Positions 996 through 14,769 of a stretch of 38,525 nucleotides of DNA are shown here, piece after piece. The stretch covers positions 1 to 38,525 of the IMG/VR virus record IMGVR_UViG_3300020710_000017; one strand, given 5' to 3'. The notes under the pieces were generated by a model. That model saw only the letters and a program-made list of their open reading frames with translations, was not told the DNA's origin and did no database searches. Source of the DNA: a virus. Position 1 is the first letter of the stretch; the number at the start of each line of letters is the position of its first letter. The position numbers and the translations under genes were made by a program.

Positions 996-1021
996 ATTGA
1001 TAACTACAGATAGGAACAAAA

Positions 1022-1408
1022 ATGTCCAACCACGCAATCACATTCACTGGCGCAGAACTTGCTTCACTCAGCATCCGGACCTCCAAGAAGGGGACTCTCT
1101 ACGCGAGTGGGCTCATTCACCTCCGTGATGAGAATGGCAAGTTCGAAGCCTCGCTCTCGTTTCGATCCTTCGATGCAGTCGCTGAACTGACGTCGCTCGA
1201 GAAACAGTACTTTGCAGAGCAGGCTGCGCAGCCAGAGACTTCAGGCGGCGACCTTCACTTCGACGGTGAAAGCACGGATACTCGGGAGCTCCAGGTAGCT
1301 AAAGCACCTGGTCGCCCCAAGGTGAACATCACTGGCTGGCTTCGTACCTCCAAAGGTACAGATGGCAAGTGGTCAACCGTGTTCATGGTGAATACCCTGA
1401 GCGTTTGA
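1022..1408 (+). CDS. Small early protein, possibly OB-fold/ssDNA-binding-like
   Basis: First gene of the early block, 128 residues, with an ATG six bases after AGGA. The sequence is a short beta-rich protein with alternating hydrophobic strands (ITFTGAEL near the N-terminus, VNITGWLRTSKG near residue 100) separated by an acidic, flexible centre. The pattern of an SxRTSKKGT turn followed by a strand, repeated near the C-terminus, recalls OB-fold nucleic-acid-binding proteins, but no diagnostic motif is visible. The role is unproven; a single-strand DNA-binding or recombination accessory function is a guess from fold-like features and early position. Confidence 0.8.
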   Translation: MSNHAITFTGAELASLSIRTSKKGTLYASGLIHLRDENGKFEASLSFRSFDAVAELTSLEKQYFAEQAAQPETSGGDLHFDGESTDTRELQVAKAPGRPKVNITGWLRTSKGTDGKWSTVFMVNTLSV

Positions 1409-1562
1409 TTAATCCCACCTGAGCAAGTGGTTAAACTGCTCATCTTTATTGGTTGTGCTAGATGTGTTGGTGAAGCCAGCACGTCTATCAGAGTCAATGA
1501 TGGTTGGCTCAGCGATAGAGTTATCGCCCCAGGATGTTGGGTTCTTGAAAGGAGATAGCAAG

Positions 1563-1787
1563 ATGAAAGCAAAGTGTGGTAAGTGCGATGTGCAGTTCGA
1601 GTCCTCTTGGGATGGGGCATCCTGGCAGGAGCTCTGCGGGGTCTGCACTCCAGCTCCGAGCCCCGATGGCCACTGTTGCAAATGCGGTGGCACTTGGCAA
1701 GCCCAGTGGGAACGCACAGCCAAGAATTGGGTGTGCGCGGGTTGCTACAACGAGTTTGCAATCCAGGAAGGGTGGGAGGCGCAATGA
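1563..1787 (+). CDS. Small multi-cysteine zinc-binding protein
   Basis: A 74-residue protein whose start is fixed by AAAGGAG eight bases upstream; the longer open frame upstream has no ribosome site. It carries CxxC pairs at residues 5/8, 25/28, 38-41 (CCKC) and 58/61, an arrangement that could bind two zinc ions in tandem zinc-ribbon-like units. No enzyme motif is present. Its stop codon overlaps the next start (ATGA), so the two are probably translationally coupled. Family not recognised; DNA, RNA or protein binding is inferred only from the cysteines. Confidence 0.75.
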   Translation: MKAKCGKCDVQFESSWDGASWQELCGVCTPAPSPDGHCCKCGGTWQAQWERTAKNWVCAGCYNEFAIQEGWEAQ

Positions 1788-2038
1788 AAGTGTATAAAAA
1801 AGGTAGCGCGCCTGCCTCAGCCATCTATGTGGGCAGAGGCAGTGCGTGGGGAAATCCCTTTGTGATTGGCACGCATGGGGATAGAGATGAAGTAATTGCC
1901 AAGTTCTATGTGTATGCTCTCCAGCGCCTTGAGCGCGAGCCTGAGTGGTTGGAACCGCTCCGTGAGGCTGATGGTTTGGTTTGCTTCTGCGCACCGCTTA
2001 AGTGTCATGGTGATGTAATCGCTAGCCTGCTCAAGTAA
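1784..2038 (+). CDS. DUF4326-family protein
   Basis: An 84-residue protein that matches the conserved pattern of DUF4326: YVGRGSAWGNPF at residues 15-26 and CFCAPLKCHGD near the C-terminus (C67, C69, C74, H75). The family is common in phages and plasmids; its biochemical role is not established. The start overlaps the preceding gene by four bases (ATGA), indicating coupling with the small zinc protein. The length is normal for the family. Confidence 0.85.
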   Translation: MKVYKKGSAPASAIYVGRGSAWGNPFVIGTHGDRDEVIAKFYVYALQRLEREPEWLEPLREADGLVCFCAPLKCHGDVIASLLK

Positions 2039-2072
2039 TGGATAGATAACGCTGAGTAGTTGATAGTTGAAC

Positions 2073-2098
2073 TGCTAGTTTCTGAGAAGAAACTAGCA
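2073..2098 (+). terminator. Hairpin after the DUF4326 gene
   Basis: TGCTAGTTTC and GAAACTAGCA form a perfect 10-bp stem over the loop TGAGAA, followed by TTTGAATT. It is a plausible intrinsic terminator or attenuator about 35 bases after the stop codon; the T-run is short. Confidence 0.5.
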
Positions 2099-2122
2099 TT
2101 TGAATTATCAAATAGATAGTTC

Positions 2123-2150
2123 AGCCTGCTGATCAAAGTGACAGCAGGCT
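2123..2150 (+). terminator. Second hairpin before the gene at 2,170
   Basis: AGCCTGCTG and CAGCAGGCT form a perfect 9-bp stem with a 10-base loop. There is no T-run; the ribosome site of the next gene follows at once. The arms resemble those of the hairpin at 114-134 (AGCAGGCT). It may be an mRNA-stabilising or translation-control element. Confidence 0.4.
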
Positions 2151-2169
2151 TCACAGAAGGAGAAGGAAC

Positions 2170-2601
2170 ATGTCACAAGCAAACGCATTTCATGCAGGTT
2201 CTGCATCCAATGGTATCAACGAATACACTTGGGAAGAGTACGAAAAAGCTATGCTTCATCTGATTGAATTGGAAGATGAAGAAGAGATTGAGGTTGTCGC
2301 TTATGCCAATGCCATGGCGTATTGGGACAATGAGCATCCAGATGCGGTAGCAGATGGTGCTAATGTAGTGTATATGTGTGAGCGTGTTGAGTCAGGACAT
2401 GACTGGGTGTCCAGTCAGACGCGCAAGAAAGATGGTAGTATCAGGGAAGAGTTTACTGAGCCAGTAGTTCATCTGGAAGATAGGTATATGGCTGACCCTG
2501 AGTTAGAGATTGGTCCGCGTGAAGCAGTATGTAACTGGTGCAACATGGTTTACAATGCTGCTAACAATGCATGTCTAGATTGTGTAGAATCTTCTAAGTA
2601 A
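2170..2601 (+). CDS. Acidic hypothetical protein with C-terminal zinc-ribbon-like cysteines
   Basis: A 143-residue, strongly acidic protein with an ATG preceded by AGAAGGAGAAGGAAC. The N-terminal half is helical and rich in Glu (LIELEDEEEIE near residue 35). The C-terminus has CNWC and CLDC pairs (about residues 122-139) spaced like a small zinc ribbon. It stands alone between hairpins on both sides. No family was recognised. An acidic protein with a zinc knuckle may bind a host protein; this is inference. Confidence 0.75.
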   Translation: MSQANAFHAGSASNGINEYTWEEYEKAMLHLIELEDEEEIEVVAYANAMAYWDNEHPDAVADGANVVYMCERVESGHDWVSSQTRKKDGSIREEFTEPVVHLEDRYMADPELEIGPREAVCNWCNMVYNAANNACLDCVESSK

Positions 2602-2613
2602 TTATGTGTTACA

Positions 2614-2648
2614 GTGACCGCCCCTGTCAATCGCCAGGGGGCGGTCAC
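2614..2648 (+). promoter_or_regulatory. Strong GC hairpin upstream of the SSB-like gene
   Basis: GTGACCG plus CCCCTG pairs with CAGGGG plus CGGTCAC (one bulged G), giving about 13 bp of mostly GC stem. There is no T-run after it, so it is not a typical intrinsic terminator. It covers an alternative GTG codon at 2,614, which argues that translation of the next gene starts at the downstream ATG (2,686). Confidence 0.55.
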
Positions 2649-2685
2649 CAGCATAGACCAAACAACTAAGAGAATGGAAAGTAAG

Positions 2686-2994
2686 ATGAATCAAGTAACA
2701 CTAAGTGGTCGCATTAAGAATGTTAAGATAGTAGGCAAGACAGGTACTGTAGTAACTGGTAACTTGTCGCAGTATATTGTAAATGAGTATGGTCGTGAGA
2801 AGTGTATTGCGACTATGCCTTTGGTGTTCTTTAATAATGGTGAAGCAGCATTGAACTTAGTAGCTGGTACTGAAGTAACAGTTATTGGTGAGATTAATAC
2901 ACGCTTTGATTCCCGTCCAGGAATTGATAATGCAGAACGTTCGAAGCCTTATACTCAGATTAAGGTAAACAAGTTGGAGCTGGTTGGACAGTAA
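2686..2994 (+). CDS. Putative single-stranded DNA-binding protein (OB fold)
   Basis: A 102-residue beta-rich protein. The ATG at 2,686 follows GGAAAG at four bases; the longer GTG-initiated frame begins inside a hairpin and is rejected. The order of strands matches a small OB-fold SSB: an opening VTLSGRIKNVKIVG strand pair, a central IATMPLVFFN strand, then GTEVTVIGEINTRF and a closing IKVNKLELVG strand. It lacks the acidic C-terminal tip of bacterial SSB. Position in the early block fits a role in replication or recombination. Family assignment rests on fold pattern only. Confidence 0.65.
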   Translation: MNQVTLSGRIKNVKIVGKTGTVVTGNLSQYIVNEYGREKCIATMPLVFFNNGEAALNLVAGTEVTVIGEINTRFDSRPGIDNAERSKPYTQIKVNKLELVGQ

Positions 2995-3002
2995 CAACAG
3001 AG

Positions 3003-3040
3003 AAAGGAAAGTCAGGGGTATCCGCTCCTGACTTTCCTTT
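3003..3040 (+). terminator. Strong hairpin after the SSB-like gene
   Basis: AAAGGAAAGTCAGG and CCTGACTTTCCTTT form a perfect 14-bp stem with a 10-base loop, nine bases after the stop codon at 2,994. The descending arm ends in CCTTT, which could act as a weak T-tract. A partial terminator or 3' mRNA protector is likely, since same-strand genes continue downstream. Confidence 0.55.
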
Positions 3041-3091
3041 AGTTGGTTGATCAATTAATGATAGATGTCTCAGCGACGAAGGGAATGCATC

Positions 3092-3235
3092 ATGTATATT
3101 TATATCAGCATTAAAGAAACAAACTTAGGATTTGGAATTGTTCTACGTAACTGGAACAAAGCAGTATGGGAACGTCCGTATAAAGGATTTCTACGTGCAT
3201 GCTTTTCAGTATTTGTATTTATTTATGCAGCTTAA
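3092..3235 (+). CDS. Small hypothetical protein with hydrophobic C-terminus
   Basis: A 47-residue frame preceded by GAAGGGA seven bases upstream. The first 35 residues are mixed; the last 15 (LRACFSVFVFIYAA region) are strongly hydrophobic and could form a short membrane anchor. It lies in a run of very small genes. No family was recognised. The good ribosome site is the main support. Confidence 0.5.
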   Translation: MYIYISIKETNLGFGIVLRNWNKAVWERPYKGFLRACFSVFVFIYAA

Positions 3236-3260
3236 TCAACCAAATGAATAGGAGCAAGAC

Positions 3261-3311
3261 ATGGTAACAATTGAGCACACAGTAAAACTAGCAGATACAC
3301 AGGAGGCATGA
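3261..3311 (+). CDS. Possible 16-residue leader peptide
   Basis: A very short frame (MVTIEHTVKLADTQEA) with AGGAGC upstream of its ATG and a stop that overlaps the next start as ATGA. The next gene also has its own AGGAGG inside this frame. It could be a coupling leader or chance. Confidence 0.3.
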   Translation: MVTIEHTVKLADTQEA

Positions 3312-3445
3312 TGATATACAATGGATTGAACTTGCTCATCGACATGGCATTAATTGCAATCGTATCAGTAACAGGCTATGCTTACGGACAGCGCGACGGC
3401 TACCATGAAGGGTGGAAAGATGCGTCGGATCATTACGTGGGTTAG
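3308..3445 (+). CDS. Small membrane protein
   Basis: A 45-residue protein with AGGAGG just upstream and two in-frame ATGs at the start. The N-terminal half is a single hydrophobic segment (about residues 6-24), followed by a soluble tail with GYAYGQRDGYHEGW. A one-helix protein with this kind of GxxxGxxDGxxxG tail is common among small phage membrane proteins of unknown role. It overlaps the start of the transglycosylase gene by 26 bases, so the two may act together at the membrane. Confidence 0.6.
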   Translation: MMIYNGLNLLIDMALIAIVSVTGYAYGQRDGYHEGWKDASDHYVG

Positions 3446-3845
3446 TGTTTACTTCCTAGTATTCTGGAGTGTGCTCATCCCCAAGCATACTCAAGCAGTA
3501 AAGATTATGTACAAGTGCGAAGAGTTAGACACTAACTACTGGACTCCATCATTAGCACAAGCCTATGCTAAACTAATAAGTTCAAGCTATGGATGGAATC
3601 GTAGTGAGTACAAAGCACTAGTTAAACTATGGAATGCAGAATCAAACTGGAATCCACTAGCATATAACAAAGACCCAGACTTGTGGTCACATAGAAATGC
3701 TGGTGGTATTCCTCAGTTGTTAGGTATGAATCCTTTGACAACGCCAGCCCCGCTGCAGATTGAGCGGGGGCTGGCTTACATAAAAGATAGATACACAAAG
3801 CCAAGTATCGCTTGGCATTGGCACCGAGTCCACGGTTGGTACTAA
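3420..3845 (+). CDS. Secreted lysozyme-like lytic transglycosylase
   Basis: A 141-residue protein starting at MRRIITWV, chosen because it gives a classic signal peptide: RR, a hydrophobic core at residues 5-20, and a cleavage-like HTQA at 23-26. The mature part resembles the SLT/lysozyme-like transglycosylases: WNAESNWNP with E74 as the likely catalytic acid, GGIPQL at 95-100, and a C-terminal block PLQIERGLAYIKDRY...AWHWHRVHGWY typical of actinobacterial and actinophage versions. It would cut glycan strands outside the membrane. Unlike the late amidase, it carries its own export signal and lies in the early block, next to the amidoligase. It could be a second lysin or a tool for local wall remodelling. 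Confidence 0.75.
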   Translation: MRRIITWVSVYFLVFWSVLIPKHTQAVKIMYKCEELDTNYWTPSLAQAYAKLISSSYGWNRSEYKALVKLWNAESNWNPLAYNKDPDLWSHRNAGGIPQLLGMNPLTTPAPLQIERGLAYIKDRYTKPSIAWHWHRVHGWY

Positions 3846-3860
3846 GAGAGAGGATGTACA

Positions 3861-5699
3861 ATGAAGACGTTTGATCTCAAAGATTTCAAAGAAAGATTTA
3901 AAGATTACAAGCTAGAGTTTTCAAGGTCCAATAGAATTACTGCAGCATTAACACTAAACCGTGCTTCAGGTTTAACGCAACTTGTATATGATAACGGTGA
4001 TGAGTTAATACTTAACTTTAATGACATCCATAACTATACATATCAAGACAACGGTATTGTTAGAGATGTTCCGTATATATCGTATCTTCCTCAGCACACA
4101 CTAGATACGTTAGCTAGTATTACAATCACACAAAGCAAGATTATAGCTGTAGGTGTATGTGGTTGGATGACATCATACCAAGGCTGTAACAATGTTCGTG
4201 TTCTTTATGATGCTCACATGCATGATACATATGCAGATAGAGATGTAGATTTACCGGGTGTTTGCAGTGAATGTGCAAACGCAATGCTTATCAACTCAAC
4301 ATATCGTACGCCTCCAACGTATGATCAAGATGGTCTACGTGTAATTAATAAGATTATACCTGACAGTATGTTTGAAGAAGTTGAAGCAGACTTAAGTACA
4401 TGTGCTGCTTGTGATACAGATGTCTTAAGTCAAGCAACATTTGATGCAATGCTAACTTACTATGAGATTACTCCTGATAGTAATGTGTATGTTGCTACAC
4501 ATCGTTGGTTGCGCATGCTTGGTACTACTGGTTACGCTGAAGGTATACACAGCAACTTGCATAACATGTGTGCTGTTGCTTGTTACAATTGTGAGCAGAA
4601 GTATAGCAATAAAACTTCCGAAACAGTTGACGTTATTACTAACAATGGTTGGCAGAAAGTTTGCTGCCGTAATTGCGTAGAAGTATTGTGGGGTAGTCGC
4701 GCTGACGACATCGAAGATTTCTGGTGTGAGCATGGCGATCACTATGCTCAGCAGACACAAGATGAGTTTCGTTGGTCTGACTATTGGGACCGAGACATGT
4801 GTAACTATTGTTATGACATGTATGTAGAATGTAACGAATGTGGTTATGAGTACCATCAAGATACTGGTCACGATTGTGAAGATGAGTATGATGATGATGA
4901 TTCAGGTTTAGTTCATAACTATAGTTACAAGCCTAACCCAATCTTCTTTGGTGATAGTAAGTATTACTTTGGTATTGAGCTTGAGGTTGAGTCACGTGCT
5001 AGCCAAAAGTCTGAAGCTGCCGAAACAGTAGTCAATGCATTGAGTGAGCATGTGTATCTTAAGAGTGATGGTTCATTAGCCAATGGCTTTGAGATCGTTA
5101 CTCATCCGCATTCACTTGATTCATTCCATGAGTTAGAATGGGGTTGGCTTGACACAATCAAGAGTCAAGGTATGCGCTCCTGGAATACCGACTCATGTGG
5201 TTTGCATGTGCATGTAAGTCGTTCTGCCTTTGGTCCGGAAGGTTATCAAACCAACAGTAATGCAATGAAGTATCTGCATGAAGCACACCTTATTCGCTTT
5301 AACAAGTTCATCTATGACAACCAGATTCAAGTAGAAATTTTGGCTGGTCGTAAGAACAATAACTATGCTAGCTTTAGCGACAAGGGTAGAGTCATCCCTA
5401 AAGTTAAGCTTAATAGGCAGAGCAGTGGTCGTTACTCTGCAGTCAATCTCGAGAACCGCACAACTGTAGAGTTGCGCATGTTCAAAGGCTCGCTTCGTAA
5501 GGAGCGAGTACTCAGTGCAGTTGAGTTTACTCATGCAGTTGTAGAGTATACTCGCAATCTAAAAGTCCAAGCAAGCAAGCGTCCATTTGCTTGGAGTCGG
5601 TTCACTACCTATGTAACAAACAATGAAGAGCTATACCCAAACCTATTTACGATCATGTCCGAATCATTTGATCGTAGAGAAAACCGAGAGGATAACTAA
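3861..5699 (+). CDS. Amidoligase-family protein with cysteine-rich N-terminal region
   Basis: A 612-residue protein. The C-terminal part (about 368-560) matches the glutamine-synthetase-like amidoligase family: FGIELEVE (370-377), KSDGSL (401-406), EIVTHPHS (411-418), CGLHVHVS (446-453), and AVNL...TTVELRMFKGS (about 527-544), which supply the metal- and ATP-binding acidic and His residues of that fold. Such enzymes form amide bonds between a carboxylate and an amine. Residues 100-330 contain many CxxC pairs (CSEC 135, CAAC 181, CYNC 241, CNYC 314, CNEC 324), probably several zinc-ribbon modules, unusual beside this domain. The next gene is a glutamine amidotransferase two bases downstream, the expected ammonia source. 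The substrate is unknown; peptides of the host wall or a protein tail are candidates. Confidence 0.8.
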   Translation: MKTFDLKDFKERFKDYKLEFSRSNRITAALTLNRASGLTQLVYDNGDELILNFNDIHNYTYQDNGIVRDVPYISYLPQHTLDTLASITITQSKIIAVGVCGWMTSYQGCNNVRVLYDAHMHDTYADRDVDLPGVCSECANAMLINSTYRTPPTYDQDGLRVINKIIPDSMFEEVEADLSTCAACDTDVLSQATFDAMLTYYEITPDSNVYVATHRWLRMLGTTGYAEGIHSNLHNMCAVACYNCEQKYSNKTSETVDVITNNGWQKVCCRNCVEVLWGSRADDIEDFWCEHGDHYAQQTQDEFRWSDYWDRDMCNYCYDMYVECNECGYEYHQDTGHDCEDEYDDDDSGLVHNYSYKPNPIFFGDSKYYFGIELEVESRASQKSEAAETVVNALSEHVYLKSDGSLANGFEIVTHPHSLDSFHELEWGWLDTIKSQGMRSWNTDSCGLHVHVSRSAFGPEGYQTNSNAMKYLHEAHLIRFNKFIYDNQIQVEILAGRKNNNYASFSDKGRVIPKVKLNRQSSGRYSAVNLENRTTVELRMFKGSLRKERVLSAVEFTHAVVEYTRNLKVQASKRPFAWSRFTTYVTNNEELYPNLFTIMSESFDRRENREDN

Positions 5700-5701
5700 C
5701 T

Positions 5702-6574
5702 ATGTGTATGCTATGTGTAATCCCACCGCATGTTACTCCAGATAGAGACATGCTTATCAACTCAGCACTTAACAATCCTCATGGCTTTGGCTTTGCTATT
5801 GCTGTGCCAGATGAGCAGCGTATCATCAGCGAGCGCAGCATGAATGCTGATGAGTCTATCAACAGATTCCTTGAGGTACGTAGTCAGTATCAAGATGGCT
5901 ATGCCACATGGCATGCCCGCTATGCTACTCATGGTAGCAAGGTGATTGAGAACTGCCATCCGTTTGTAGTAGGCAACGACCTGCGTACCTACCTGTCACA
6001 CAATGGTATCCTAGATGTAGATGTACCTAAGGGTGATGACCGTAGTGATACCCGTATCTTTGCAGAAGAACTTATCCCTGCATTAGGTGGTGTCACCGCC
6101 CTTGATAATCCATGGGTGTTCGACATGCTTGAAGACTATACCTCTGGTTCTAAGGTAGCCATTCTTACTGTAGACCCTAAAGCTAAGCATGAACTGTATC
6201 TACTCAATGAACATCTAGGTTGGGAAGATAGCTCAGGTGTGTGGTGGTCTAACCAGACATGTTATCTAGATGCCTGGGTTACTGACTACCGCAGCAAAGA
6301 CTTTGCTAAGTATGACGATGAAGAGTATGATGTGCAAGCCTGGCTCAAAGCTTCAAAGCAATCCAATATATCCAAGTGGATCAACAAACCTGTTGATGGT
6401 AAGATTCAATGCGGTGCTTGTGATTATGTTAGCACAGAGAAAGAAGTTGCTGACTATGAGAATGCATGCTACAATTGTGGCTACTGCTTTGAGTGTGATG
6501 CTATAGCATCATGGTGTGATTGCTATACCCCATCTCAACACAAGGCGGCAGGTCTATGGGTACCAGAATACTAA
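5702..6574 (+). CDS. Class II glutamine amidotransferase (Ntn hydrolase)
   Basis: A 290-residue protein. Cys2 directly after Met1 is the expected N-terminal nucleophile once Met is removed. Other class II motifs are in order: HARYATHG (71-78), NCHPF (84-88), LSHNGI (98-103) and DTRIF (116-120). It releases ammonia from glutamine. A separate C-terminal zinc-ribbon region carries CGAC (237-240) and CYNCGYCFEC (256-265), echoing the cysteine-rich region of the upstream amidoligase. The two-base gap to that gene implies co-translation and a joint complex in which ammonia is passed to the ligase. No synthase domain is fused here, so the amidoligase is the natural partner. Confidence 0.85.
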   Translation: MCMLCVIPPHVTPDRDMLINSALNNPHGFGFAIAVPDEQRIISERSMNADESINRFLEVRSQYQDGYATWHARYATHGSKVIENCHPFVVGNDLRTYLSHNGILDVDVPKGDDRSDTRIFAEELIPALGGVTALDNPWVFDMLEDYTSGSKVAILTVDPKAKHELYLLNEHLGWEDSSGVWWSNQTCYLDAWVTDYRSKDFAKYDDEEYDVQAWLKASKQSNISKWINKPVDGKIQCGACDYVSTEKEVADYENACYNCGYCFECDAIASWCDCYTPSQHKAAGLWVPEY

Positions 6575-6614
6575 TGGATAGCGAGATGCTTGCAAGTTTG
6601 GAGGAGGATAAACA

Positions 6615-6767
6615 ATGGAGTGGGTACTAATTGTTAACATCAACTCAGATGAGTTTGTTTATGGGCCGTTCGATACAGTCAAAGCAGCAGAAGCCTGGTC
6701 TAAGAACTTCCCTAACAATCCAAGCTGGGCGCTGCAATTGATCAGGCCAACCTACAATGCAGACTAA
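6615..6767 (+). CDS. Small hypothetical protein
   Basis: A 50-residue protein with GGAGGAGG upstream. The sequence (MEWVLIVNINSDEFVYGPF...) shows two strands and a helix, ending ALQLIRPTY, and resembles the small single-domain proteins seen in many actinophages. No function is assigned. Its last codons overlap the next gene by 11 bases. Confidence 0.6.
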   Translation: MEWVLIVNINSDEFVYGPFDTVKAAEAWSKNFPNNPSWALQLIRPTYNAD

Positions 6768-6885
6768 TTGCTGGGCGTGCAACACGCCGATAGAAGTTAA
6801 GTCTGATGACTATGACAGGAGTGGACTTAACTTCTGTTATACTTGTGCGTGGACAAGACTATCATCAGACGTTGACGAACGGTAG
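6757..6885 (+). CDS. Small zinc-ribbon-like protein
   Basis: A 42-residue protein with CWAC (residues 5-8) and CYTC (27-30), the spacing of a single zinc ribbon. The start overlaps the end of the preceding gene, and only a weak ribosome site is visible, so translation probably depends on coupling. Function unknown. Confidence 0.5.
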   Translation: MQTNCWACNTPIEVKSDDYDRSGLNFCYTCAWTRLSSDVDER

Positions 6886-6959
6886 TACTGAAGGACACAG
6901 TACTAGATCGTGTGTCTAACTGCTGTATGTTTGGGCAGCTGGTGTGGTACACTTGATCG

Positions 6960-7001
6960 CTAGGCAGGCAGAGTTTTAGTCATTTTCTCTGCCTGTCCTA
7001 G
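6960..7001 (+). promoter_or_regulatory. Long hairpin before the nuclease gene
   Basis: CTAGG-CAGGCAGAG pairs with CTCTGCCTG-T-CCTAG (14 bp, one bulged T) around a T-rich loop. Just after it, CTCC (7,002-7,005) can pair with GGAG (7,012-7,015) of the ribosome site, which lies only three bases before the ATG. The first structure could be an attenuator; the second could hide the ribosome site. A new mRNA segment encoding replication genes may begin here. Confidence 0.45.
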
Positions 7002-7019
7002 CTCCGACTAAGGAGGCAC

Positions 7020-7793
7020 ATGGAAATCCAAAGAGATAGATACGGCAGACCTCTGGTCATACCGCCAGGCGGTAGCAAGCCTGTAGCCTATACTCGAACT
7101 ACTACTATTGCTGGCTCACTTGATGATGCCAGCGCACTGATTGCCTGGAAGATGCGCATGGCTTGCATTGGATTAAGCCAGCGTCCAGACTTGCTGCTTG
7201 CAGTAGCAGCCACAGATAAGACAGACAACAAGGCTATCAATGCCTTAGTTGAAGAAGCAATGGAGGCATCAGGCGCCAATGCTGCTGCCCGTATTGGGTC
7301 AGCTGTCCATGCCATGACTGAGAAGATGGACAGAGGAGAGACAATTGAAGCTGTACCTGAACCATACATCGGAGACCTACGTGCCTACGCTGCTGCTACA
7401 TCTATCTTTACTAACCGATTCATTGAGCAGTTCACAGTACTAGATGAGTACAAAATTGCAGGAACACCTGACCGTGTGGTAGAATACAACGGAGAGTTAT
7501 ACATCTCAGACTTAAAGACAGGCAGCCTACACCCTAGTAGTGTAGCCATGCAGTTGTCTATTTATTCCCGCGCCCTCCCGTACGACATTGCTACGGGCGA
7601 GCGCGGTACATTCGGTCCTGTTAACCAGGATCGTGGTATTATTGTGCATCTACCAGCTGGTAAAGCCACGTGCGAGTTGCACTGGGTTGACCTCAAAGAA
7701 GGTTGGGAAGGTGTACAGTTAGCAATGAAAGCAAGAAAGTGGAGAGACCAAAAAGGTTTAACCACACCGTTTGAAGAAGGGAACGATGGCTAG
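7020..7793 (+). CDS. Cas4/RecB-like PD-(D/E)XK exonuclease
   Basis: A 257-residue nuclease of the RecB/Cas4 fold. Motifs in order: GSAVHAMTE (93-101, with H97), AGTPDRVV (147-154, with D151), ISDLKTG (162-168, the D-x-K core) and QLSIYSRA (178-185, the conserved Q/Y motif). The four cysteines of the Cas4 Fe-S cluster are absent, so this is the non-cluster phage version. It likely resects or processes DNA ends during replication and recombination. It begins the replication group, and its end overlaps the next gene by eight bases. Confidence 0.8.
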   Translation: MEIQRDRYGRPLVIPPGGSKPVAYTRTTTIAGSLDDASALIAWKMRMACIGLSQRPDLLLAVAATDKTDNKAINALVEEAMEASGANAAARIGSAVHAMTEKMDRGETIEAVPEPYIGDLRAYAAATSIFTNRFIEQFTVLDEYKIAGTPDRVVEYNGELYISDLKTGSLHPSSVAMQLSIYSRALPYDIATGERGTFGPVNQDRGIIVHLPAGKATCELHWVDLKEGWEGVQLAMKARKWRDQKGLTTPFEEGNDG

Positions 7794-8238
7794 TACAGAA
7801 GCACCAATCAGTATTACCGTCAAGACAGGAGCAGGTAGTCTTGTAACTGTTCGAGCCGAGTCAGGCGAAGAACTAGACCAGACAGTTGCACTTAGTCTTG
7901 ACGCTATCAAGTCTGCAGTAACAGAGCTTGAGTCCACAGTTGGTGGTAAAGCCAGCACAGTAACTACTGCTGCTGCCGTCTCCACATTACAGAATGCATT
8001 CCCTGGTTCTACAGTAGTACCAGCAGACAATGCATTTGCTAATACTCCTACACTGCATGTCGGTCGATCATGTCAACATGGTAAGATGACTGCACTCCAA
8101 GGCCCGTCCAAGACAGGTGGAGTTTACAAGGGTTACTTCTGCCCATCAGCACAAGGCGACCCAACTAAGTGTAAGACTATCTATGTCAACAAGACAGACC
8201 CTGAATGGAATACATTCATTCCCGACCGCAGTAAGTAG
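7786..8238 (+). CDS. Hypothetical protein of the replication group, zinc-binding C-terminus
   Basis: A 150-residue protein; the ATG at 7,786 follows GAAGAAGGGA and overlaps the nuclease end by eight bases. The N-terminal half is a small beta/helix domain (ISITVKTGAGSLVTVRAE), the middle is Ala/Thr/Ser-rich, and the C-terminal 50 residues contain CQHG, YFCP and CKTIYV, spaced like a zinc site (C, H, C, C). Its location between the nuclease and the helicase suggests a DNA-binding or loading factor. Function is inferred from context only. Confidence 0.7.
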   Translation: MASTEAPISITVKTGAGSLVTVRAESGEELDQTVALSLDAIKSAVTELESTVGGKASTVTTAAAVSTLQNAFPGSTVVPADNAFANTPTLHVGRSCQHGKMTALQGPSKTGGVYKGYFCPSAQGDPTKCKTIYVNKTDPEWNTFIPDRSK

Positions 8239-8244
8239 CACTAG

Positions 8245-9063
8245 ATGAAAACATTACGGCGTTCAATTAAGAAAGCCGACGTTGGAGGGGAGCCCTTACC
8301 GGCTCCCTTTCAGGCGTTTGCTAGGGCAGGTATAGTCCTGCGCCGAGCTGAGGTGACAGTCATTGCAGGTACACCAGGTGCTGGTAAGTCTACAGTTGCA
8401 CTGCATATTGCAGCCAAGCTACAGATGCCAACGCTTTACTTCTCTGCTGACACCAATGCACACACAATGGCTATGAGATTGATTGCACTCTCAGGCAAGA
8501 TGACACAGGCAGAAGCTGAAGTCTTGATGCTCAACCATCCAGAGACAGCAGAAAGCGTGCTTGCTGAGAACAATCATTTGTACTGGTCATTTGAATCTAG
8601 TCCTACACTCAAAGACTTAGATGAAGAAGTCTCTGCCTTTGAAACTATGTGGGGTAGAAGCCCAACGCTTATCGTAGTCGACAACCTTATGGACATTGCA
8701 ATGGATGGACATGAAGAGTTCGGTGGTATGCGACAGGCCATGAAAGAACTCAAGTTCTTAGCACGTGATACCAATGCATGCGTGCTAGTATTGCACCACA
8801 CGCAAGAGGGAATCACTGGTACTCCATGTCAGCCACGCTCTGCACTGCAGGGTAAGGTAGCACAGGTACCTGCTATGGTTCTTACAGTTGGGCAGAAGAT
8901 GCTGCCCAATCAGATTGATTCATATCTCTGTGTTGCACCAGTAAAGAACAGGTACGGCAAAGCAGATCAAACAGGAAACTCATACGTCGAACTATCCTTT
9001 GATCCTGCTAGCATGTACCTCGAGGATGTAATCAGAGACTATACACAGGAGCAAATGATTTGA
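8245..9063 (+). CDS. RecA/DnaB-type replicative helicase-like ATPase
   Basis: A 272-residue P-loop ATPase consisting of a RecA-like core. Walker A is AGTPGAGKST (41-50), Walker B is LIVVDNL (142-148), and LVLHHTQEG (181-189) gives the sensor/His motif typical of DnaB-type hexamers. There is no N-terminal primase-interaction domain, so it is shorter than cellular DnaB. It likely unwinds DNA or acts as a recombinase-like motor, with the split primase genes nearby. The start lacks a strong ribosome site and lies seven bases after the previous stop. Confidence 0.8.
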   Translation: MKTLRRSIKKADVGGEPLPAPFQAFARAGIVLRRAEVTVIAGTPGAGKSTVALHIAAKLQMPTLYFSADTNAHTMAMRLIALSGKMTQAEAEVLMLNHPETAESVLAENNHLYWSFESSPTLKDLDEEVSAFETMWGRSPTLIVVDNLMDIAMDGHEEFGGMRQAMKELKFLARDTNACVLVLHHTQEGITGTPCQPRSALQGKVAQVPAMVLTVGQKMLPNQIDSYLCVAPVKNRYGKADQTGNSYVELSFDPASMYLEDVIRDYTQEQMI

Positions 9064-9404
9064 GTAGCGCAGCCAAAGCCAAGGGTTCTGGAGCAGAACG
9101 CGATGTAGTAAAGTACCTCAAGGACAATGGCTTTCAGTACGCCGACAGGCGACTGGCTGGTGCCACCCTAGATAAGGGTGACATCAGTGGCATACCTGGT
9201 GTTACCATTGAAATAAAGAATCATGCTAAGATGGATATAGCAGGATGGACAGAAGAGTTGTTAGTCGAGATGGCTAATGACAAAGCATGGACAGGTGTAG
9301 TGTGGCACAAGCGGAAGGGCAAGGGAAGCCCGGCCGATTGGTACTGCACTATGCCAGGACATGTATGGTTAGACCTACTAAAGAAAGCGATGAAGAATGT
9401 TTGA
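9060..9404 (+). CDS. Holliday-junction-resolvase-like endonuclease
   Basis: A 114-residue protein beginning with a TTG that overlaps the helicase stop (TTGA). It has the small PD-(D/E)XK resolvase pattern: E13 in SGAERDVV, D41 in KGDISGIPG, and E51-x-K53 in VTIEIKNH. This is close to the archaeal-type/phage Holliday junction resolvase family and to VRR-NUC-like nucleases. It probably cuts branched DNA before packaging. Tight overlaps on both sides place it in one translational unit with helicase and primase. Confidence 0.75.
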   Translation: MSSAAKAKGSGAERDVVKYLKDNGFQYADRRLAGATLDKGDISGIPGVTIEIKNHAKMDIAGWTEELLVEMANDKAWTGVVWHKRKGKGSPADWYCTMPGHVWLDLLKKAMKNV

Positions 9405-9603
9405 GTTCCGCAAGAAGCTTGACAAGGTAGTAACAGTTGTTGATGCACTAGTTACTGTAGCCAAAGCACAGCATCGACTAGCTCGAGATACGCACAATCA
9501 CCTAATACGTTTAACAGAATACATTGATCAACTAGAATTGCGCATCGAAGTATTGGAAGCAGAGACCTTTGACTATGATGACAACGAAGCATGCGATTGC
9601 TGA
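9397..9603 (+). CDS. Small coiled-coil protein
   Basis: A 68-residue protein whose start overlaps the nuclease end by eight bases. The residues are nearly all helical with heptad-like hydrophobics (LDKVVTVVDALVTVAKAQHRL, then LTEYIDQLELRIEVLE), and the last residues are acidic and end in CDC. It probably forms a dimer or trimer. No family was recognised. Confidence 0.55.
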   Translation: MFEFRKKLDKVVTVVDALVTVAKAQHRLARDTHNHLIRLTEYIDQLELRIEVLEAETFDYDDNEACDC

Positions 9604-9958
9604 TTACCTTACACACATAGGGGCAACAGTCCCACATCGTAGGGGCGGGTGGTGCAAGATGCGCTGCCCGTTCCACGATGATAGAAACGCTAGTGCTGCC
9701 GTGAACTTTGATGCTAACCGCTTCAAGTGTCACGGTTGTGGCGTCTCTGGAGATACATATGATTTGATTCAACACGATAGAGGAGGTACACTAATTGAAG
9801 CTGTCGAATTCGCAAAGACAATTTCTACTACGGGCGACGCAACAATACGCTTCAACAATAGACCAAGCGGAAGAGTACCTAGCAACACGGGGATTATCAG
9901 TCGAAGAAGCTCGTCGGTTTCATCTGGGAGTGGTCGTCGATCCACTCACAGGTCATGA
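9575..9958 (+). CDS. Primase zinc-finger (CHC2-type) protein
   Basis: A 127-residue frame. Its first 85 residues match the CHC2 zinc-binding domain of DnaG-type primases: CKMRCPFHDDRNASA, a strand, then FKCHGCGVSGDTYDLI, supplying C, C/H, C, C ligands. It recognises the template for primer synthesis. After GTLIEAVEFAKTIS the reading becomes low-complexity Ser/Arg sequence, while the TOPRIM gene occupies another frame, so the last 45 residues may be non-functional or replaced through a frameshift. Two adjacent ATGs (9,575 and 9,578) are possible starts; the ribosome site is weak. Confidence 0.75.
   Translation: MMTTKHAIADYLTHIGATVPHRRGGWCKMRCPFHDDRNASAAVNFDANRFKCHGCGVSGDTYDLIQHDRGGTLIEAVEFAKTISTTGDATIRFNNRPSGRVPSNTGIISRRSSSVSSGSGRRSTHRS
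9781..9797 (+). promoter_or_regulatory. Internal ribosome site for the TOPRIM gene
   Basis: A perfect AGGAGG (9,781-9,786) lies eight bases before a TTG codon (9,795) inside the zinc-finger gene. The spacing is ideal for initiation and supports separate translation of the TOPRIM protein. The same site could alternatively promote frameshifting by a ribosome reading the upstream gene. Confidence 0.6.
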
Positions 9959-10427
9959 ACCATTTGCTGGTAGACTAGCTATCCCCTACATCACACCATC
10001 AGGTGTGGTGGATATAAGATTCCGCTCGATGCATGGAGAAGAACCTAAGTACATGGGCATGTCAGGCGTGCAGACTACCATGTTTAATACCAGTGCATGC
10101 TTTGCAGCGAGCAAATATATCTGTGTCACCGAAGGTGAGATGGATGCAGTAATCATGGGTGTTAAGACCGAGCACCCGACAGTAGGAATACCAGGAGCCA
10201 ACAGCTGGCGGTCGCACTATGCCCGTATCTTAGATGACTTTGATATTGTCATTGTGCTAGCTGATGGCGACAAAGCGGGAGCAGACTTTGGTAAGCATGT
10301 TGCCCGCGAAGTACCAAATACTACGGTACTATCTATGCCAGAAGGCGACGACGTTAACAGCGTCTACCTACGACAAGGGAAAGATTGGTTAGATGAGCGA
10401 ATCAGAAATTGTATTGCATCTGGATGA
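9795..10427 (+). CDS. DnaG-like TOPRIM primase protein
   Basis: A 210-residue protein starting at TTG with an ideal AGGAGG. It contains a short N-terminal helical region (AEEYLATRGLSVEEARRF), the RFHLG...AGRLAIPY core strands, and the TOPRIM triad: EGEMDAV (113-119), LADGDKAG (155-162) and EGDDVNSVY (183-191). These acidic residues bind the metal ions for primer synthesis. It begins 164 bases before the zinc-finger gene ends and is one frame ahead (+1). Together they would make one normal phage primase without a helicase domain. Separate subunits or a frameshift fusion are both possible. Confidence 0.8.
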   Translation: MKLSNSQRQFLLRATQQYASTIDQAEEYLATRGLSVEEARRFHLGVVVDPLTGHEPFAGRLAIPYITPSGVVDIRFRSMHGEEPKYMGMSGVQTTMFNTSACFAASKYICVTEGEMDAVIMGVKTEHPTVGIPGANSWRSHYARILDDFDIVIVLADGDKAGADFGKHVAREVPNTTVLSMPEGDDVNSVYLRQGKDWLDERIRNCIASG

Positions 10428-10701
10428 TTCCATTTGGGATCATGTTGAACACATGGAAGGGTCAGTCGGTATCCGGATTACCGAGGACAAAGTGTTAGAT
10501 TTATTGGGAGCATTGTATGACATCTATCACGTTGGTCAAACGGATAAGGAAGCTAGCCAGTCTCTTCTTATTGGGCTTGCTGCTCTACTTGTTGCAGCAC
10601 CAATGGGTCAAGCAGATAAGGTATGGGAAGAACTCCAAGTCCAAGAAGGTATGAAGAACTTTGAGTTGTCAGTAAAGGAAATGCTTGATGAAGGAAAGTG
10701 A
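10393..10701 (+). CDS. Hypothetical helical protein of the replication group
   Basis: A 102-residue, acidic, mostly helical protein (LHLDDSIWDHVEHMEG at the start, LLIGLAALLVAAPMG in the middle, KNFELSVKEMLDEGK at the end). It overlaps the primase end by 35 bases. The central hydrophobic stretch is short and broken by polar residues, so a soluble helical bundle is more likely than a membrane protein. Family unknown. Confidence 0.6.
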   Translation: MSESEIVLHLDDSIWDHVEHMEGSVGIRITEDKVLDLLGALYDIYHVGQTDKEASQSLLIGLAALLVAAPMGQADKVWEELQVQEGMKNFELSVKEMLDEGK

Positions 10702-11098
10702 TGTCGACAATATCCTGGCCGAACTCAAGTCAATCCTACTCAAGAAGCAGCAAGATTACGGTCCGCTTAACATCTCCAACTCACCAGGTGGACCACTCAA
10801 TGGGCTACGAGTACGAATGTTTGACAAGCTGGCCCGATTCAACAACTTGTATGATAACGGAAACGACACGCCGAACTACGAAAGTCTCAACGATACCTTC
10901 ATAGATCTGGCGAACTATGCAATAATTGGGATACTAGTCCAGAACGGACAATGGGAAGGACTGCCTTCCACTACTCCCAATAGGAGCACGAATGTCAAAG
11001 ACAAAGCAGAATCGTATCGTCATAATCCCCGACCTCCAGATTCCGTACCACCATCCAAAGTCGTTAGCGACGTTCATCGAATTCGTAAAGGATTATAA
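10688..11098 (+). CDS. DUF1599/Nmad1-like nucleotide-associated protein
   Basis: A 136-residue protein. Residues 1-95 match the DUF1599 pattern: KKQQDYGPLNIS, RVRMFDKLARFNNLY, a Glu-Ser-Leu-xx-Asp-Thr motif, and DLANYAIIGILVQNG. This all-helical family resembles MazG-type nucleotide-binding bundles and has been linked by genome context to nucleotide modification. The last 40 residues are Pro/Arg/Ser-rich and overlap the next gene by 107 bases in another frame, so they may contribute little. The start is the ATG within the previous gene's end. Confidence 0.65.
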   Translation: MKESDVDNILAELKSILLKKQQDYGPLNISNSPGGPLNGLRVRMFDKLARFNNLYDNGNDTPNYESLNDTFIDLANYAIIGILVQNGQWEGLPSTTPNRSTNVKDKAESYRHNPRPPDSVPPSKVVSDVHRIRKGL

Positions 11099-11750
11099 AC
11101 CCACACAATTGTGGTGTGTCGGTGACGAATTAGATGCACCAGAGCCTAGCCGTTGGAACAAGGGATACGCTGGAGAGTACGCAGGTACACTACAGGATTC
11201 TATAGATGAGACGCATGACATCATGCTTCGATTCCGCAACGCGCTAGGGTGGGACAAACCCTTTATCATTCAACGATCTAATCACACAGATCGTATCGAG
11301 AACTACGTAACAAAGTATGCCCCAGCATTTGAACCACTTAGAGATATCAAGGTGGAGAATCTGCTGGGGTATTCTGATTTAGGTATCACTTACCTACATC
11401 GAATGAAAGAGATTGTACCTGGCTGGGTTATGGCACACGGTGACGAAGGTAGACTTAGCAAGGTGCCAGGCTCAACAGCCTTGTCACTAGCTCACACTAT
11501 TGGCAAGTCAGTAGTGTGTGGACACACACACCGCTTAGGTATTCAGCATGAAACCACAGGGCTATACGGAAACAACAAAACAATCTTTGGCCTTGAGGTT
11601 GGACACATGATGGACATTAAGCAGGCTAGCTACCTTACATCTGGTGTTGCTAACTGGCAACAAGGATTCGGTTTGCTTGTGCAGAACAAACAGAACAAGT
11701 ACGTACCATACACAGTACCTATGATCAATGGAGATATCCAACTACCATGA
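10992..11750 (+). CDS. Calcineurin-like metallophosphoesterase
   Basis: A 252-residue phosphoesterase with the full metal-site series: IPDLQIPYH (D14, H20), VGDELD (44-48), SNHTDR (N97, H98), AHGDEG (H149) and GHTH (177-180). The family hydrolyses phosphomonoesters or diesters, including nucleic-acid ends. Actinophages commonly carry such a gene near replication functions. Its substrate here is not known. The stop overlaps the next start (ATGA), implying coupling with the sigma-like factor. Confidence 0.8.
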   Translation: MSKTKQNRIVIIPDLQIPYHHPKSLATFIEFVKDYKPTQLWCVGDELDAPEPSRWNKGYAGEYAGTLQDSIDETHDIMLRFRNALGWDKPFIIQRSNHTDRIENYVTKYAPAFEPLRDIKVENLLGYSDLGITYLHRMKEIVPGWVMAHGDEGRLSKVPGSTALSLAHTIGKSVVCGHTHRLGIQHETTGLYGNNKTIFGLEVGHMMDIKQASYLTSGVANWQQGFGLLVQNKQNKYVPYTVPMINGDIQLP

Positions 11751-12421
11751 AGTTAAACATAGATATGTTTGTACCTTACGAAGAAATGATGGCACGTATT
11801 GCATCAGAGTACACACGTAAGTACAAAATGGTAGAGCACAAAGACTTGATGCAAGAACAATACTTGTGGTTCGTATCACACCCACGTAAGTTCAAAGAGT
11901 GGACGGCGCTAGGGGAAAAGGATTGTGTCAAGCTACTAGCCAAGTCGCTACGCAATGCTTGCCTTAAGTACTGCGAGAAGGAGAAGGCAAGGGCTGGAGG
12001 ATACGACGTCAGCGACGTCTACTACTATGAACCTGTAGTAGTTGAGGCATACTTGCCTACAATTATTGCTGAGTCTTACGAGATGCCAGCTAAGCTCAAG
12101 AGCTACAGCATGATCCACTCTAAGGGTGAGATCAGCGATGGCATGAACTGGCTAGCCATCCGCTCTGACATTGCTGCTGCATTCTATAAGTTGAATGCAG
12201 ACAAGCAACATATCCTACGTGTTCGCTTTAGCGACGAGAGTCGTGACTGGGAATCAGTAGCAGAAGAATTAGGCACAACCAAAGATGGAGCACGTATGAA
12301 AGTACAACGCGCCGTCATTGCACTTATCCGTAACCTTGGAGGCGAAAGGCCCTTTCATGACAAAGACCAAAAAGAAAAGCAGCATACCAGTACAGACGAA
12401 GCCCCAGATGAACAAGGGTAA
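11747..12421 (+). CDS. Sigma-70-like transcription factor
   Basis: A 224-residue protein with two helical parts. Residues 14-75 (IASEYTRKYKMVEHKDLMQEQYLWF...) resemble sigma region 2, which binds RNA polymerase and the -10 element. Residues about 149-197 (LNADKQHILRVRF...WESVAEELGTTKDGARMKVQRAV) resemble region 4, a helix-turn-helix for the -35 element. The layout is that of a short, ECF-type factor with diverged sequence. It probably redirects host RNA polymerase to phage late promoters. The last 25 residues are charged and overlap the next gene. Confidence 0.65.
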   Translation: MKLNIDMFVPYEEMMARIASEYTRKYKMVEHKDLMQEQYLWFVSHPRKFKEWTALGEKDCVKLLAKSLRNACLKYCEKEKARAGGYDVSDVYYYEPVVVEAYLPTIIAESYEMPAKLKSYSMIHSKGEISDGMNWLAIRSDIAAAFYKLNADKQHILRVRFSDESRDWESVAEELGTTKDGARMKVQRAVIALIRNLGGERPFHDKDQKEKQHTSTDEAPDEQG

Positions 12422-13091
12422 CATTGTATTGTGTTGGTGTGACAATGGAACAACAGACGGCAAGTTCACTCAAGGAGTTGTGTATGCTCTCCTTACATCA
12501 GGTCTCCCTATTCGATCAGCAATGCGAGTGCAAGGAAATCAAATTGGAAGACAGCGACAAAACGCACTAGACCACTGGTATAACAACACAGACTTTGAAT
12601 GGATCTTGTGGGTAGACTCAGACATTGTGCTTACTAACGAAGCACTACAGAAGCTGTGGTCTATTGCAGATGTAAAGACTAAGCCAGTAGTTACTGGCAC
12701 ATACTTCGTATCAAAGGAGAATGAGCAATCGCTAATGACTCCGTACCCCGCCCTGTTTTCATGGACAGACGACGAGTACAAGATCGCTTACGTACATCCA
12801 CTACCAGAGAATGCCGTAACACAAGTCGGTGCTTCTGGCTTTGGTTTCGTACTAATGCACAGAAGTGCAGTTGCAAAGATGAAAGAGGTACACGGTGATA
12901 ACACTCCGTTCTTCAATGAGACTGGTGTTGGTGAGCAATTTGTTTCAGAAGATATTAACTTCTTCCGTCTTATGTACAAGGCGAACGTCCCGCTCTACGC
13001 ACACACAGGAGCGCACGTTCAACACATGAAGCGGTTCTCGTTTGACATTGAGTTCTACGATTTGTACTGGAGCAACCACGTAGATGGATGA
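12357..13091 (+). CDS. GT-A-fold (family 2-like) glycosyltransferase
   Basis: A 244-residue protein starting at MTKTKKKSS, with GAAAGG upstream. The core shows strand-helix-strand order and WILWVDSDIVL (82-92), in which D87-S-D89 is the metal/nucleotide-sugar-binding DxD motif. Later come TGTYFVSK, GFGFVLMHRS and VSEDINFF (E198, D199, likely acceptor-site acids) and a C-terminal His pair (AHTGAHVQH). It would transfer a sugar from a nucleotide-sugar donor. The acceptor may be virion protein, host wall or modified DNA; none can be chosen from sequence. It overlaps the sigma-like gene by 65 bases. Confidence 0.75.
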   Translation: MTKTKKKSSIPVQTKPQMNKGNIVLCWCDNGTTDGKFTQGVVYALLTSGLPIRSAMRVQGNQIGRQRQNALDHWYNNTDFEWILWVDSDIVLTNEALQKLWSIADVKTKPVVTGTYFVSKENEQSLMTPYPALFSWTDDEYKIAYVHPLPENAVTQVGASGFGFVLMHRSAVAKMKEVHGDNTPFFNETGVGEQFVSEDINFFRLMYKANVPLYAHTGAHVQHMKRFSFDIEFYDLYWSNHVDG

Positions 13092-13266
13092 CCTGCGTGG
13101 CATCCCTACTACGGTGTGCATCTGTGGTTCTATGATGTTCAAGCTTAAAGTAATATGGGATCAGGAAACAAAAGAAGTTGGCATGTACATGCTAGACCAG
13201 GAGTGTGTAGAGTGCGGTACAATAACTACCGCACCTACCCCGATTGATGAGGAGCTCAATGCCTAG
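13084..13266 (+). CDS. Small zinc-ribbon protein
   Basis: A 60-residue protein with CIC at residues 12-14 and CVEC at 41-44 flanking a beta hairpin (FKLKVIWDQETKEVGMYML), the plan of a zinc ribbon. Overlaps of eight bases with the glycosyltransferase and with the following gene show tight coupling. Function unknown; similar short proteins occur near this position in actinophage genomes. Confidence 0.65.
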   Translation: MDDLRGIPTTVCICGSMMFKLKVIWDQETKEVGMYMLDQECVECGTITTAPTPIDEELNA

Positions 13267-13426
13267 GTATGAATACAAGTGTAATCTTTGTGGTACACTT
13301 AAAGAGATCGAGCGCAGCTACTCTGACACAACGGAACCCCAATGCTGTAATGCTACCATGCAGCGTGTATGGAATGCTACGCCTACAATTTTTAAGACCG
13401 GTGGATTCTACAAGACGGGCAACTAA
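13259..13426 (+). CDS. FmdB-family zinc-ribbon protein
   Basis: A 55-residue protein starting at MPRYEYKC with GAGGAG upstream. The N-terminus YEYKCNLCG (C8, C11) and the CC at 29-30 are the zinc ligands of the FmdB regulatory family, which begins with a very similar MPxYEYxCxxCG. The following GGFYKTGN tail is also typical. Members are small and of uncertain regulatory role. The stop touches the WhiB start as TAATG. Confidence 0.75.
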   Translation: MPRYEYKCNLCGTLKEIERSYSDTTEPQCCNATMQRVWNATPTIFKTGGFYKTGN

Positions 13427-13695
13427 TGAAAGATGGATATCTCAGCATCGATTTTATGGATCGAGAAAAATGGAAAGACAATGCTAACTGTGCAGGCATA
13501 GACACAGAAGAGTTCTTTCAAGATGGACCTGGCAATCAGTACGACCCTAGGCTACTTACCATCTGCAACAACTGTTACGTCAGACGTGACTGCCTAAACT
13601 ATGCCATTGAGAACAACGAAGAAGGTTATTGGGCTGGTACTACACCAAGAACCAGACAAAGAATCAGATCTGGCAGACAGAAACTACCCTCCTGA
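13426..13695 (+). CDS. whiB: WhiB-family Fe-S transcription regulator
   Basis: An 89-residue protein with the four WhiB cysteines (C22, C47, C50, C56) in the order C-x24-CNNC-x5-C, which hold a 4Fe-4S cluster. The signature turn is GYWAGTT (67-73, GVWGG in cellular members), and a basic tail RTRQRIRSGRQK follows for DNA contact. WhiB proteins bind sigma factor region 4 and alter promoter choice; phage members can repress host whiB genes. It is the last gene of the early block and ends inside a terminator. It is the strongest evidence for an actinobacterial host. Confidence 0.9.
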   Translation: MKDGYLSIDFMDREKWKDNANCAGIDTEEFFQDGPGNQYDPRLLTICNNCYVRRDCLNYAIENNEEGYWAGTTPRTRQRIRSGRQKLPS

Positions 13696-13708
13696 CAGAG
13701 GGTAGTTT
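13681..13708 (+). terminator. Terminator of the early (plus) operon
   Basis: AAACTACCCTC and GAGGGTAGTTT form a perfect 11-bp stem over the loop CTGACA. The whiB stop codon lies in the loop. The right arm ends in TTT. The structure is nearly symmetrical, so it might also slow transcription coming from the right. Confidence 0.7.
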
Positions 13709-14229: not shown

Positions 14230-14769
14230 TTACGAGTGGGATTGAATGAGCCCAAGGTAGGTAGTCCATGGGAAGTTAGAGCCTGGGTCGGTGTGTCCAC
14301 CTGCGATAGCCTTTGCTATCGTGATGTCATGATGTCCACAGAACCCCGACTTGCCTGCTAAGATATCAGCAGGGCTAAGCCTGACAAGGGGAATTCGGTA
14401 ACGCTTAGCAATCTCCGCAGCAAGAGCAGCGGATAGCGCAAGCTCAGCCTTTGAGTATGCATCGTTCCATTGATCCGTTGTCTGAGATGCTGAACCAGCA
14501 TGCTCAATTGAGATAGACTGTTGGTTAAGCGCCCAGTCGTCCACCGCCCAAGCGGTGTCGAATTCGCTGACTGACTGCACAACTTGCTTGTCATCTACCA
14601 TGTAGTGAGCCGATGCCTGTGGTGCTGTCTTGCCGTTGAACCACTGAGCAACCTGCTTAGCACGGCCTTCAGACTCAGGGGTCTCCATAGTATGTACGAC
14701 AATAAGGTGAGGGATGTGGCCGTTGCGTCCCTTGGTATAGTTAGTAGCCTGATAAAATGGGTAGGTCAT
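14230..14769 (-). CDS. Endolysin, N-acetylmuramoyl-L-alanine amidase (Amidase_2)
   Basis: A 179-residue amidase made of the catalytic domain only. LIVVHTMET (H26) gives the first zinc ligand, SAHYMVDD (H55) follows, then SIEHAG (E89, H90), CGHHDI (H146/H147) and GGHTDPGSNFPW (159-168, D161), the typical closing motif. It cuts between N-acetylmuramic acid and the stem peptide. No wall-binding domain or signal peptide is present, so it needs the holin for release. It overlaps the upstream membrane-protein gene by four bases. Confidence 0.9.
   Translation of the reverse strand: MTYPFYQATNYTKGRNGHIPHLIVVHTMETPESEGRAKQVAQWFNGKTAPQASAHYMVDDKQVVQSVSEFDTAWAVDDWALNQQSISIEHAGSASQTTDQWNDAYSKAELALSAALAAEIAKRYRIPLVRLSPADILAGKSGFCGHHDITIAKAIAGGHTDPGSNFPWTTYLGLIQSHS

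Follow-up and report, generated by a model that had tools for sequence, protein, structure and literature searches.

The window analysed here, the whole 38,525-nucleotide stretch of the virus record IMGVR_UViG_3300020710_000017, encodes an amidoligase and a class II glutamine amidotransferase in genes that lie 2 bases apart and that stay side by side in phages and in actinobacterial elements. We put at roughly 0.6 the probability that the two proteins are subunits of one mobile-element enzyme that depends on glutamine to amidate a carboxylate and whose zinc fingers serve for docking. The original prediction, made from the letters and their open reading frames (ORFs), had grouped the two enzymes with a small membrane protein and an exported transglycosylase at 3420–6574, and had suggested amidation of peptidoglycan stem peptides or of proteins, for example to block superinfection or tune lysis. 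The features that carry the present reading are as follows.

3861–5699 (+): amidoligase (Amidoligase_2, glutamine synthetase/YbdK-like), 612 amino acids; PF12224, Foldseek, invariant residues
4158–4877 (+): zinc-finger array of the amidoligase, residues 100–339; conserved CxxC pairs, weak LIM-like profile (E = 0.013)
4953–5675 (+): catalytic domain of the amidoligase, residues 365–605; Pfam match at 400–561, confidently modelled, structural matches
5702–6574 (+): class II glutamine amidotransferase (N-terminal nucleophile type, Cys2 nucleophile), 290 amino acids; phrog_25883, catalytic residues, Foldseek
6410–6523 (+): eight-Cys zinc tail of the amidotransferase, residues 237–274; conserved Cys
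6757–6885 (+): small zinc-ribbon protein (CWAC...FCYTCA), 42 amino acids; past the span of the original prediction

Catalytic domains and zinc regions

By family, active-site set and glutamine synthetase (GS)-superfamily fold, the upstream protein is a GS-like carboxylate-amine ligase of predicted activity. Its residues 400–561 match Pfam Amidoligase_2 (PF12224; E = 7e-8; 33.1 bits against a cut-off of 22), which bears out the original call at 3861–5699. The motifs GxExE (371–375), DGS (403–405), E411, GxHxH (447–451), N487, R497, N529 and ExR (537–539) are invariant, with an active-site set of E373, E375, D403, E411, H449, H451, N487, R497, N529, E537 and R539. These catalytic residues are unchanged in 54 phage sequences and in the divergent phages Marvin, MEP401 and ctgrD200, with the catalytic acids intact. 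In the predicted structure the mean predicted local distance difference test score (pLDDT) is 77, the catalytic part being mostly at about 90, and Foldseek pairs the model with YbdK (1r8g), GshF, GS, GmaS and PafA (E = 3.6e-5 to 3e-3 for the YbdK/GS/GmaS/PafA fold class). All 14 PDB matches at E ≤ 0.001 are YbdK, glutathione-synthetase-type ligases, GS-type enzymes or GmaS. By sequence, no solved structure is matched by the ligase domain, and the only matches are weak ones to LIM domains (E ≥ 0.013).

The downstream protein is, on its catalytic residues and predicted fold, a class II (N-terminal nucleophile, Ntn) glutamine amidotransferase, in agreement with the original assignment. It matches phrog_25883 (E = 3e-35), and its scores against Pfam GATase_4 and GATase_6 are below the cut-offs (20.2 against 23 and 20.8 against 27 bits; E = 3e-4 to 4e-4). 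Cys2, Arg73, Asn101, Gly102 and Asp116 are present in 78 of 78 relatives, within the invariant or nearly invariant motifs HNG (100–102) and SD (115–116), and a relative at locus L044 is matched by Foldseek to the glutaminase domain of GlmS (1xff, E = 7.4e-6), to EgtC and to PurF. For both enzymes, the catalytic residues are invariant across 41–72 relatives and in the very distant Marvin, MEP401 and ctgrD200.

Both enzymes also carry the Cys-rich regions that had been proposed for them. Residues 1–350 of the amidoligase hold 18 of its 19 Cys, and most Cys columns of the array are 90–100% Cys across 54–72 relatives and are conserved in bacterial relatives too. Column 292 is Cys in 65 of 68 relatives and Gly in the window protein, and in the Marvin amidoligase only the ribbon adjoining the catalytic domain is clear. 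In the amidotransferase tail, C237, C240, C256, C259, C262, C265, C272 and C274 are each conserved in 96–99% of relatives; the tail is kept in Marvin gp106 and absent in ctgrD200.

Furthermore, the module extends beyond position 6574 to the small zinc-ribbon ORF at 6757–6885. Of 69 phage loci, which come from related phages and are not fully independent, 60 have a homologue 175–453 bases past the amidotransferase, and no homologue lies anywhere else in them; the motif occurs in none of 301 random windows. Its alignment shows four invariant Cys and the pattern CxxC...V...D...YCxxCA. A role as a LysW-like C-terminal carrier was considered and rejected because the C-termini are not conserved.

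Conservation and distribution of the pair

Since the loci were collected by pattern-based searches, the counts given here describe close to moderately distant relatives; a search of viral contigs with the window amidoligase sequence alone found no match, whereas an alignment-based search did find relatives. Scanning for the amidotransferase yields 73 phage loci, with an amidoligase directly upstream in all 68 that have upstream sequence, the other five ending at a contig edge. Scanning for the amidoligase places an amidotransferase next to it in 74 of the 74 phage loci with room, a set that shares some contigs with the 68. Because adjacency is complete in both scans, the genes are paired more than chance would allow; they are never far apart. 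As the catalytic acids are intact too, the original prediction withstands two of its three refutation tests. Adjacency is kept in the unrelated phages Marvin, MEP401 and ctgrD200 and in bacterial elements, down to 25–34% identity, and the pair is also present in a phage of Methylophilales. The two enzymes are a conserved, probably co-translated pair.

Bacterial genomes contribute 64 loci, mainly from Nocardia and Pseudonocardiales, with an amidoligase in 63 of them. As called by a simple GC-bias gene caller, 82 of 104 amidoligase ORFs in these loci overlap the amidotransferase start, all by an equal amount, and 37 loci have at least two amidoligase ORFs. Tandem amidoligase/amidotransferase copies are seen in Nocardia loci (L083, L091, L095 and others), where the full-length amidoligase ORFs number up to three. 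Around the bacterial pairs, Pfam repeatedly identifies DprA, Prim-Pol, DUF4192 and, weakly, ParB-like proteins; recurrent proteins like single-stranded DNA-binding protein (SSB) and pilus-type proteins were recognised by eye. From these neighbours, rather than element by element, we read the bacterial pairs as lying on elements resembling plasmids or integrative and conjugative elements. Three mycobacterial plasmids were examined: the pair is present on two, and in the third it is cut off where the record ends. No PADLOC anti-phage defence model was matched by the five proteins tested.

Two side observations concern these loci. In 51 bacterial pair loci (L080–L141), some 1.8 kb past the amidotransferase, there is a gene for a protein of about 190 amino acids with a conserved CxxC/HxxC zinc knuckle (CQVCGxGL...GLHPECAWYS) and without a Pfam match. 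In 22 phage loci (L014, L016, L019, L020, L029, L033, L035, L036, L047, L061 and others), the palindrome GTACGATWATCGTAC occurs 155 times against about 0.003 expected; it recurs about every 666 bases along the early operon, frequently where two genes meet and frequently immediately before the start of the amidotransferase, and is a candidate operator (stoperator)-like site or intercistronic hairpin. The window itself lacks this palindrome.

Neighbouring genes and layout of the window

The genes around the pair that bear on its interpretation are listed here.

3308–3445 (+): small protein with a single transmembrane segment, 45 amino acids (MMIYNGLNLLIDMALIAIVSV...); ORF overlapping the transglycosylase start
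3420–3845 (+; alternative ATG at 3378): exported transglycosylase-like protein; AggPromo_Cterm, phrog_12661, invariant Glu88
6615–6767 (+): small protein downstream of the pair, 50 amino acids; at least seven phage loci have a recognisable homologue in this position
13426–13695: WhiB-type gene
14230–14769: amidase endolysin, in the late half and separate from the enzyme pair

An exported transglycosylase-like protein does stand beside the pair in the window, as originally described. It scores 44.2 bits against NCBIfam AggPromo_Cterm (cut-off 40) and matches the 'transglycosylase' family phrog_12661 (E = 3e-8), Pfam SLT falling short of its cut-off (12.8 against 21.3 bits; E = 0.09). Glu88 is invariant in 45 of 45 sequences, and the N-terminus is usually hydrophobic. 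Only 9 of the 48 phage loci possessing a homologue have it next to the pair; in the remaining 39 it is away from the pair, for the most part some 6 kb off and on the other strand; the gene is therefore probably a lineage gene, a passenger rather than part of the module. The small membrane protein likewise exists, with its ORF outside the span in which it had been placed. Of 56 phage loci with enough sequence before the amidoligase, 49 encode the same or a similar protein there, as detected by motif, and the motif occurs 11 times elsewhere.

Between the amidotransferase and the zinc-ribbon gene, about 50 phage loci (for example L045:3022–3228) encode a conserved small helical protein (YYYGVRAELFLHDAEQAL...AGQLP) that has no Pfam match.

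The early half of the window runs rightward from about 1,000 to 13,700, and the late half runs leftward, with terminase, head and tail genes and the endolysin. Within the early half, the enzyme module follows an oligonucleotide/oligosaccharide-binding-fold (SSB-like) ORF and precedes a RecB-like exonuclease and a DnaB-like helicase. WhiB genes also adjoin the pair in loci of relatives, and together with the WhiB-type gene of the window they indicate that the host is probably an actinobacterium.

Further genes of the window deserve mention. An early glycosyltransferase-family gene (12318–13091; phrog_34859, E = 1e-90) possibly acts in host-surface or DNA glycosylation. In the late region, an HslV-family peptidase-like gene (33592–34125, −; phrog_1040) is perhaps an unusual prohead protease, and a protein of 1765 amino acids (27870–33167, −) has no PHROG match at E ≤ 0.01.

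Function of the pair

In the reading that we favour, the amidotransferase, with Cys2 as nucleophile, would release ammonia from glutamine, and the GS/YbdK-type amidoligase would activate a carboxylate with ATP and join that ammonia, or another amine, to it as an amide. The three zinc-bearing parts (ligase array, amidotransferase tail and small zinc-ribbon protein) may hold the subunits, a large substrate or both together. Several observations weigh against this reading. Class II Ntn enzymes of such a fold can be plain gamma-glutamyl hydrolases, and EgtC is among the structural matches. Docking of the two chains is not confident, the joined-chain ligase–amidotransferase fold (through the in-frame stop of L044) having a predicted template modelling score of 0.41. 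In a mirror-tree comparison the ligase–amidotransferase correlation (r = 0.80) is not singled out from ligase–WhiB (0.82) or amidotransferase–transglycosylase (0.79). Finally, none of 61 bacterial loci has the motif of the small zinc-ribbon protein, which hence is not essential everywhere.

As to the substrate, we suggest tentatively, at clearly less than even odds, that the zinc-protein system, with the small zinc-ribbon subunit in phages, amidates a macromolecule of the cytoplasm (a host protein, a tRNA or DNA) instead of the wall, and may serve takeover or counter-defence for phages, plasmids and integrative elements of actinobacteria.

The main mechanistic rival is a gamma-glutamyl scheme, since YbdK, GshF and EgtC are among the closest folds. 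In the ergothioneine pathway, the GS-class ligase EgtA works with the class II Ntn enzyme EgtC. By analogy with EgtA/EgtC or YbdK, the ligase would gamma-glutamylate an amine, and the gamma-glutamyl group would be removed or transferred by the Ntn enzyme, with no free ammonia passed. The best structural matches of the ligase, YbdK and GshF, are both gamma-glutamyl-cysteine type ligases, and a gamma-glutamyl cyclotransferase is found in related phage cassettes (PMC5498523; Rhizobium phage). However, the true amidotransferases GlmS and PurF match the Ntn enzyme as well as or better than EgtC, no cyclotransferase is found among the window genes scanned, and the near-fixed overlap of the genes suggests a complex rather than sequential enzymes. 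The window pair also differs from EgtA/EgtC in its zinc domains and gene context, with no ergothioneine genes recognised. With the catalytic domains of YbdK, GS, GmaS and PafA the window ligase shares the fold, at 10–14% identity, and it differs from them in its zinc array and its paired amidotransferase. On this evidence we consider the gamma-glutamyl scheme unlikely.

If the pair amidated the wall so as to exclude superinfection or tune lysis, its targets would be the stem-peptide carboxylates (D-isoglutamate or meso-diaminopimelate) of lipid II, and the membrane protein and the transglycosylase would be its partners. According to PMC10580990 and PMC5498523, the phage pairing of amidoligase and amidotransferase families and the wall/superinfection proposal stem from Iyer et al. 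2009 and Hardies et al. 2013; the proposal concerns cassettes of the phiEco32 type. This 'peptidoglycan modification cassette' of phiEco32, LUZ24 and RIO-1 resembles the window module in having an amidoligase and a class II amidotransferase in the early region; by comparison, the window genes scanned include no ATP-grasp enzyme, second amidoligase or gamma-glutamyl cyclotransferase. MurT/GatD, which amidates lipid II, provides a precedent for an ATP-dependent ligase with a glutaminase subunit capable of such a reaction (PMC3267633). The likeness is one of outline: MurT/GatD combines a Mur-ligase fold with a class I glutaminase and has no comparable zinc arrays, whereas the window pair combines a GS-like fold with a class II Ntn enzyme. 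The frequent membrane-protein motif upstream of the amidoligase would suit a wall role, and entry exclusion could serve plasmids too. Against such a role stand the location of the pair in the early replication region, the rarity of an adjacent transglycosylase, the separate endolysin, the occurrence of the pair on plasmids, and the recurrent bacterial neighbours, which belong to DNA metabolism (DprA, ParB-like, SSB-like, Prim-Pol and DUF4192 genes) and not to the wall. The originally proposed tie of the pair to lysis or to the transglycosylase is thus not supported, and wall amidation itself appears doubtful.

Interference with protein tagging, in which a PafA/Dop-like ligase fold amidates Pup or its targets, would fit the actinobacterial hosts (WhiB genes; Nocardia, mycobacteria). 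PafA and Dop are among the Foldseek matches of the ligase model (E = 2e-3 to 9e-3), more weakly than YbdK and GS, no Pup-like protein was noticed near the pair, and one carrier of the pair is a phage of Methylophilales, bacteria that to our knowledge lack Pup; we hold this explanation to be very improbable. That the genes are unlinked passengers of one phage lineage, as distances co-varying about equally with those of other lineage genes might imply, is scarcely credible given their adjacency in unrelated phages and bacterial elements.

Returning to the two-subunit amidating enzyme, its nearest known counterparts are phage pairs (Iyer et al. 2009; Marvin gp105/gp106; gp05/06 of the OM43 phages MEP401/402), which share the families, the order, the adjacency and the intact catalytic motifs. 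Two features set the window apart from these pairs: the long multi-zinc array at the N-terminus, shared with its actinobacterial relatives (in Marvin only the last ribbon is clear), and the small zinc-ribbon gene downstream, present in the phage clade of the window. In the open-access literature searched, we found neither the zinc array nor the small zinc-ribbon gene described, nor any account of the spread of the pair on actinobacterial plasmids.

Phage amidoligase/amidotransferase pairs have been known for more than 15 years, and the wall or superinfection proposal keeps recurring in the literature. Marvin gp105/gp106 in M. smegmatis mc2 155 offers a tractable system for the pair. The spread of the pair on actinobacterial plasmids and integrative-type elements, together with its conserved zinc arrays, argues for looking beyond lysis.

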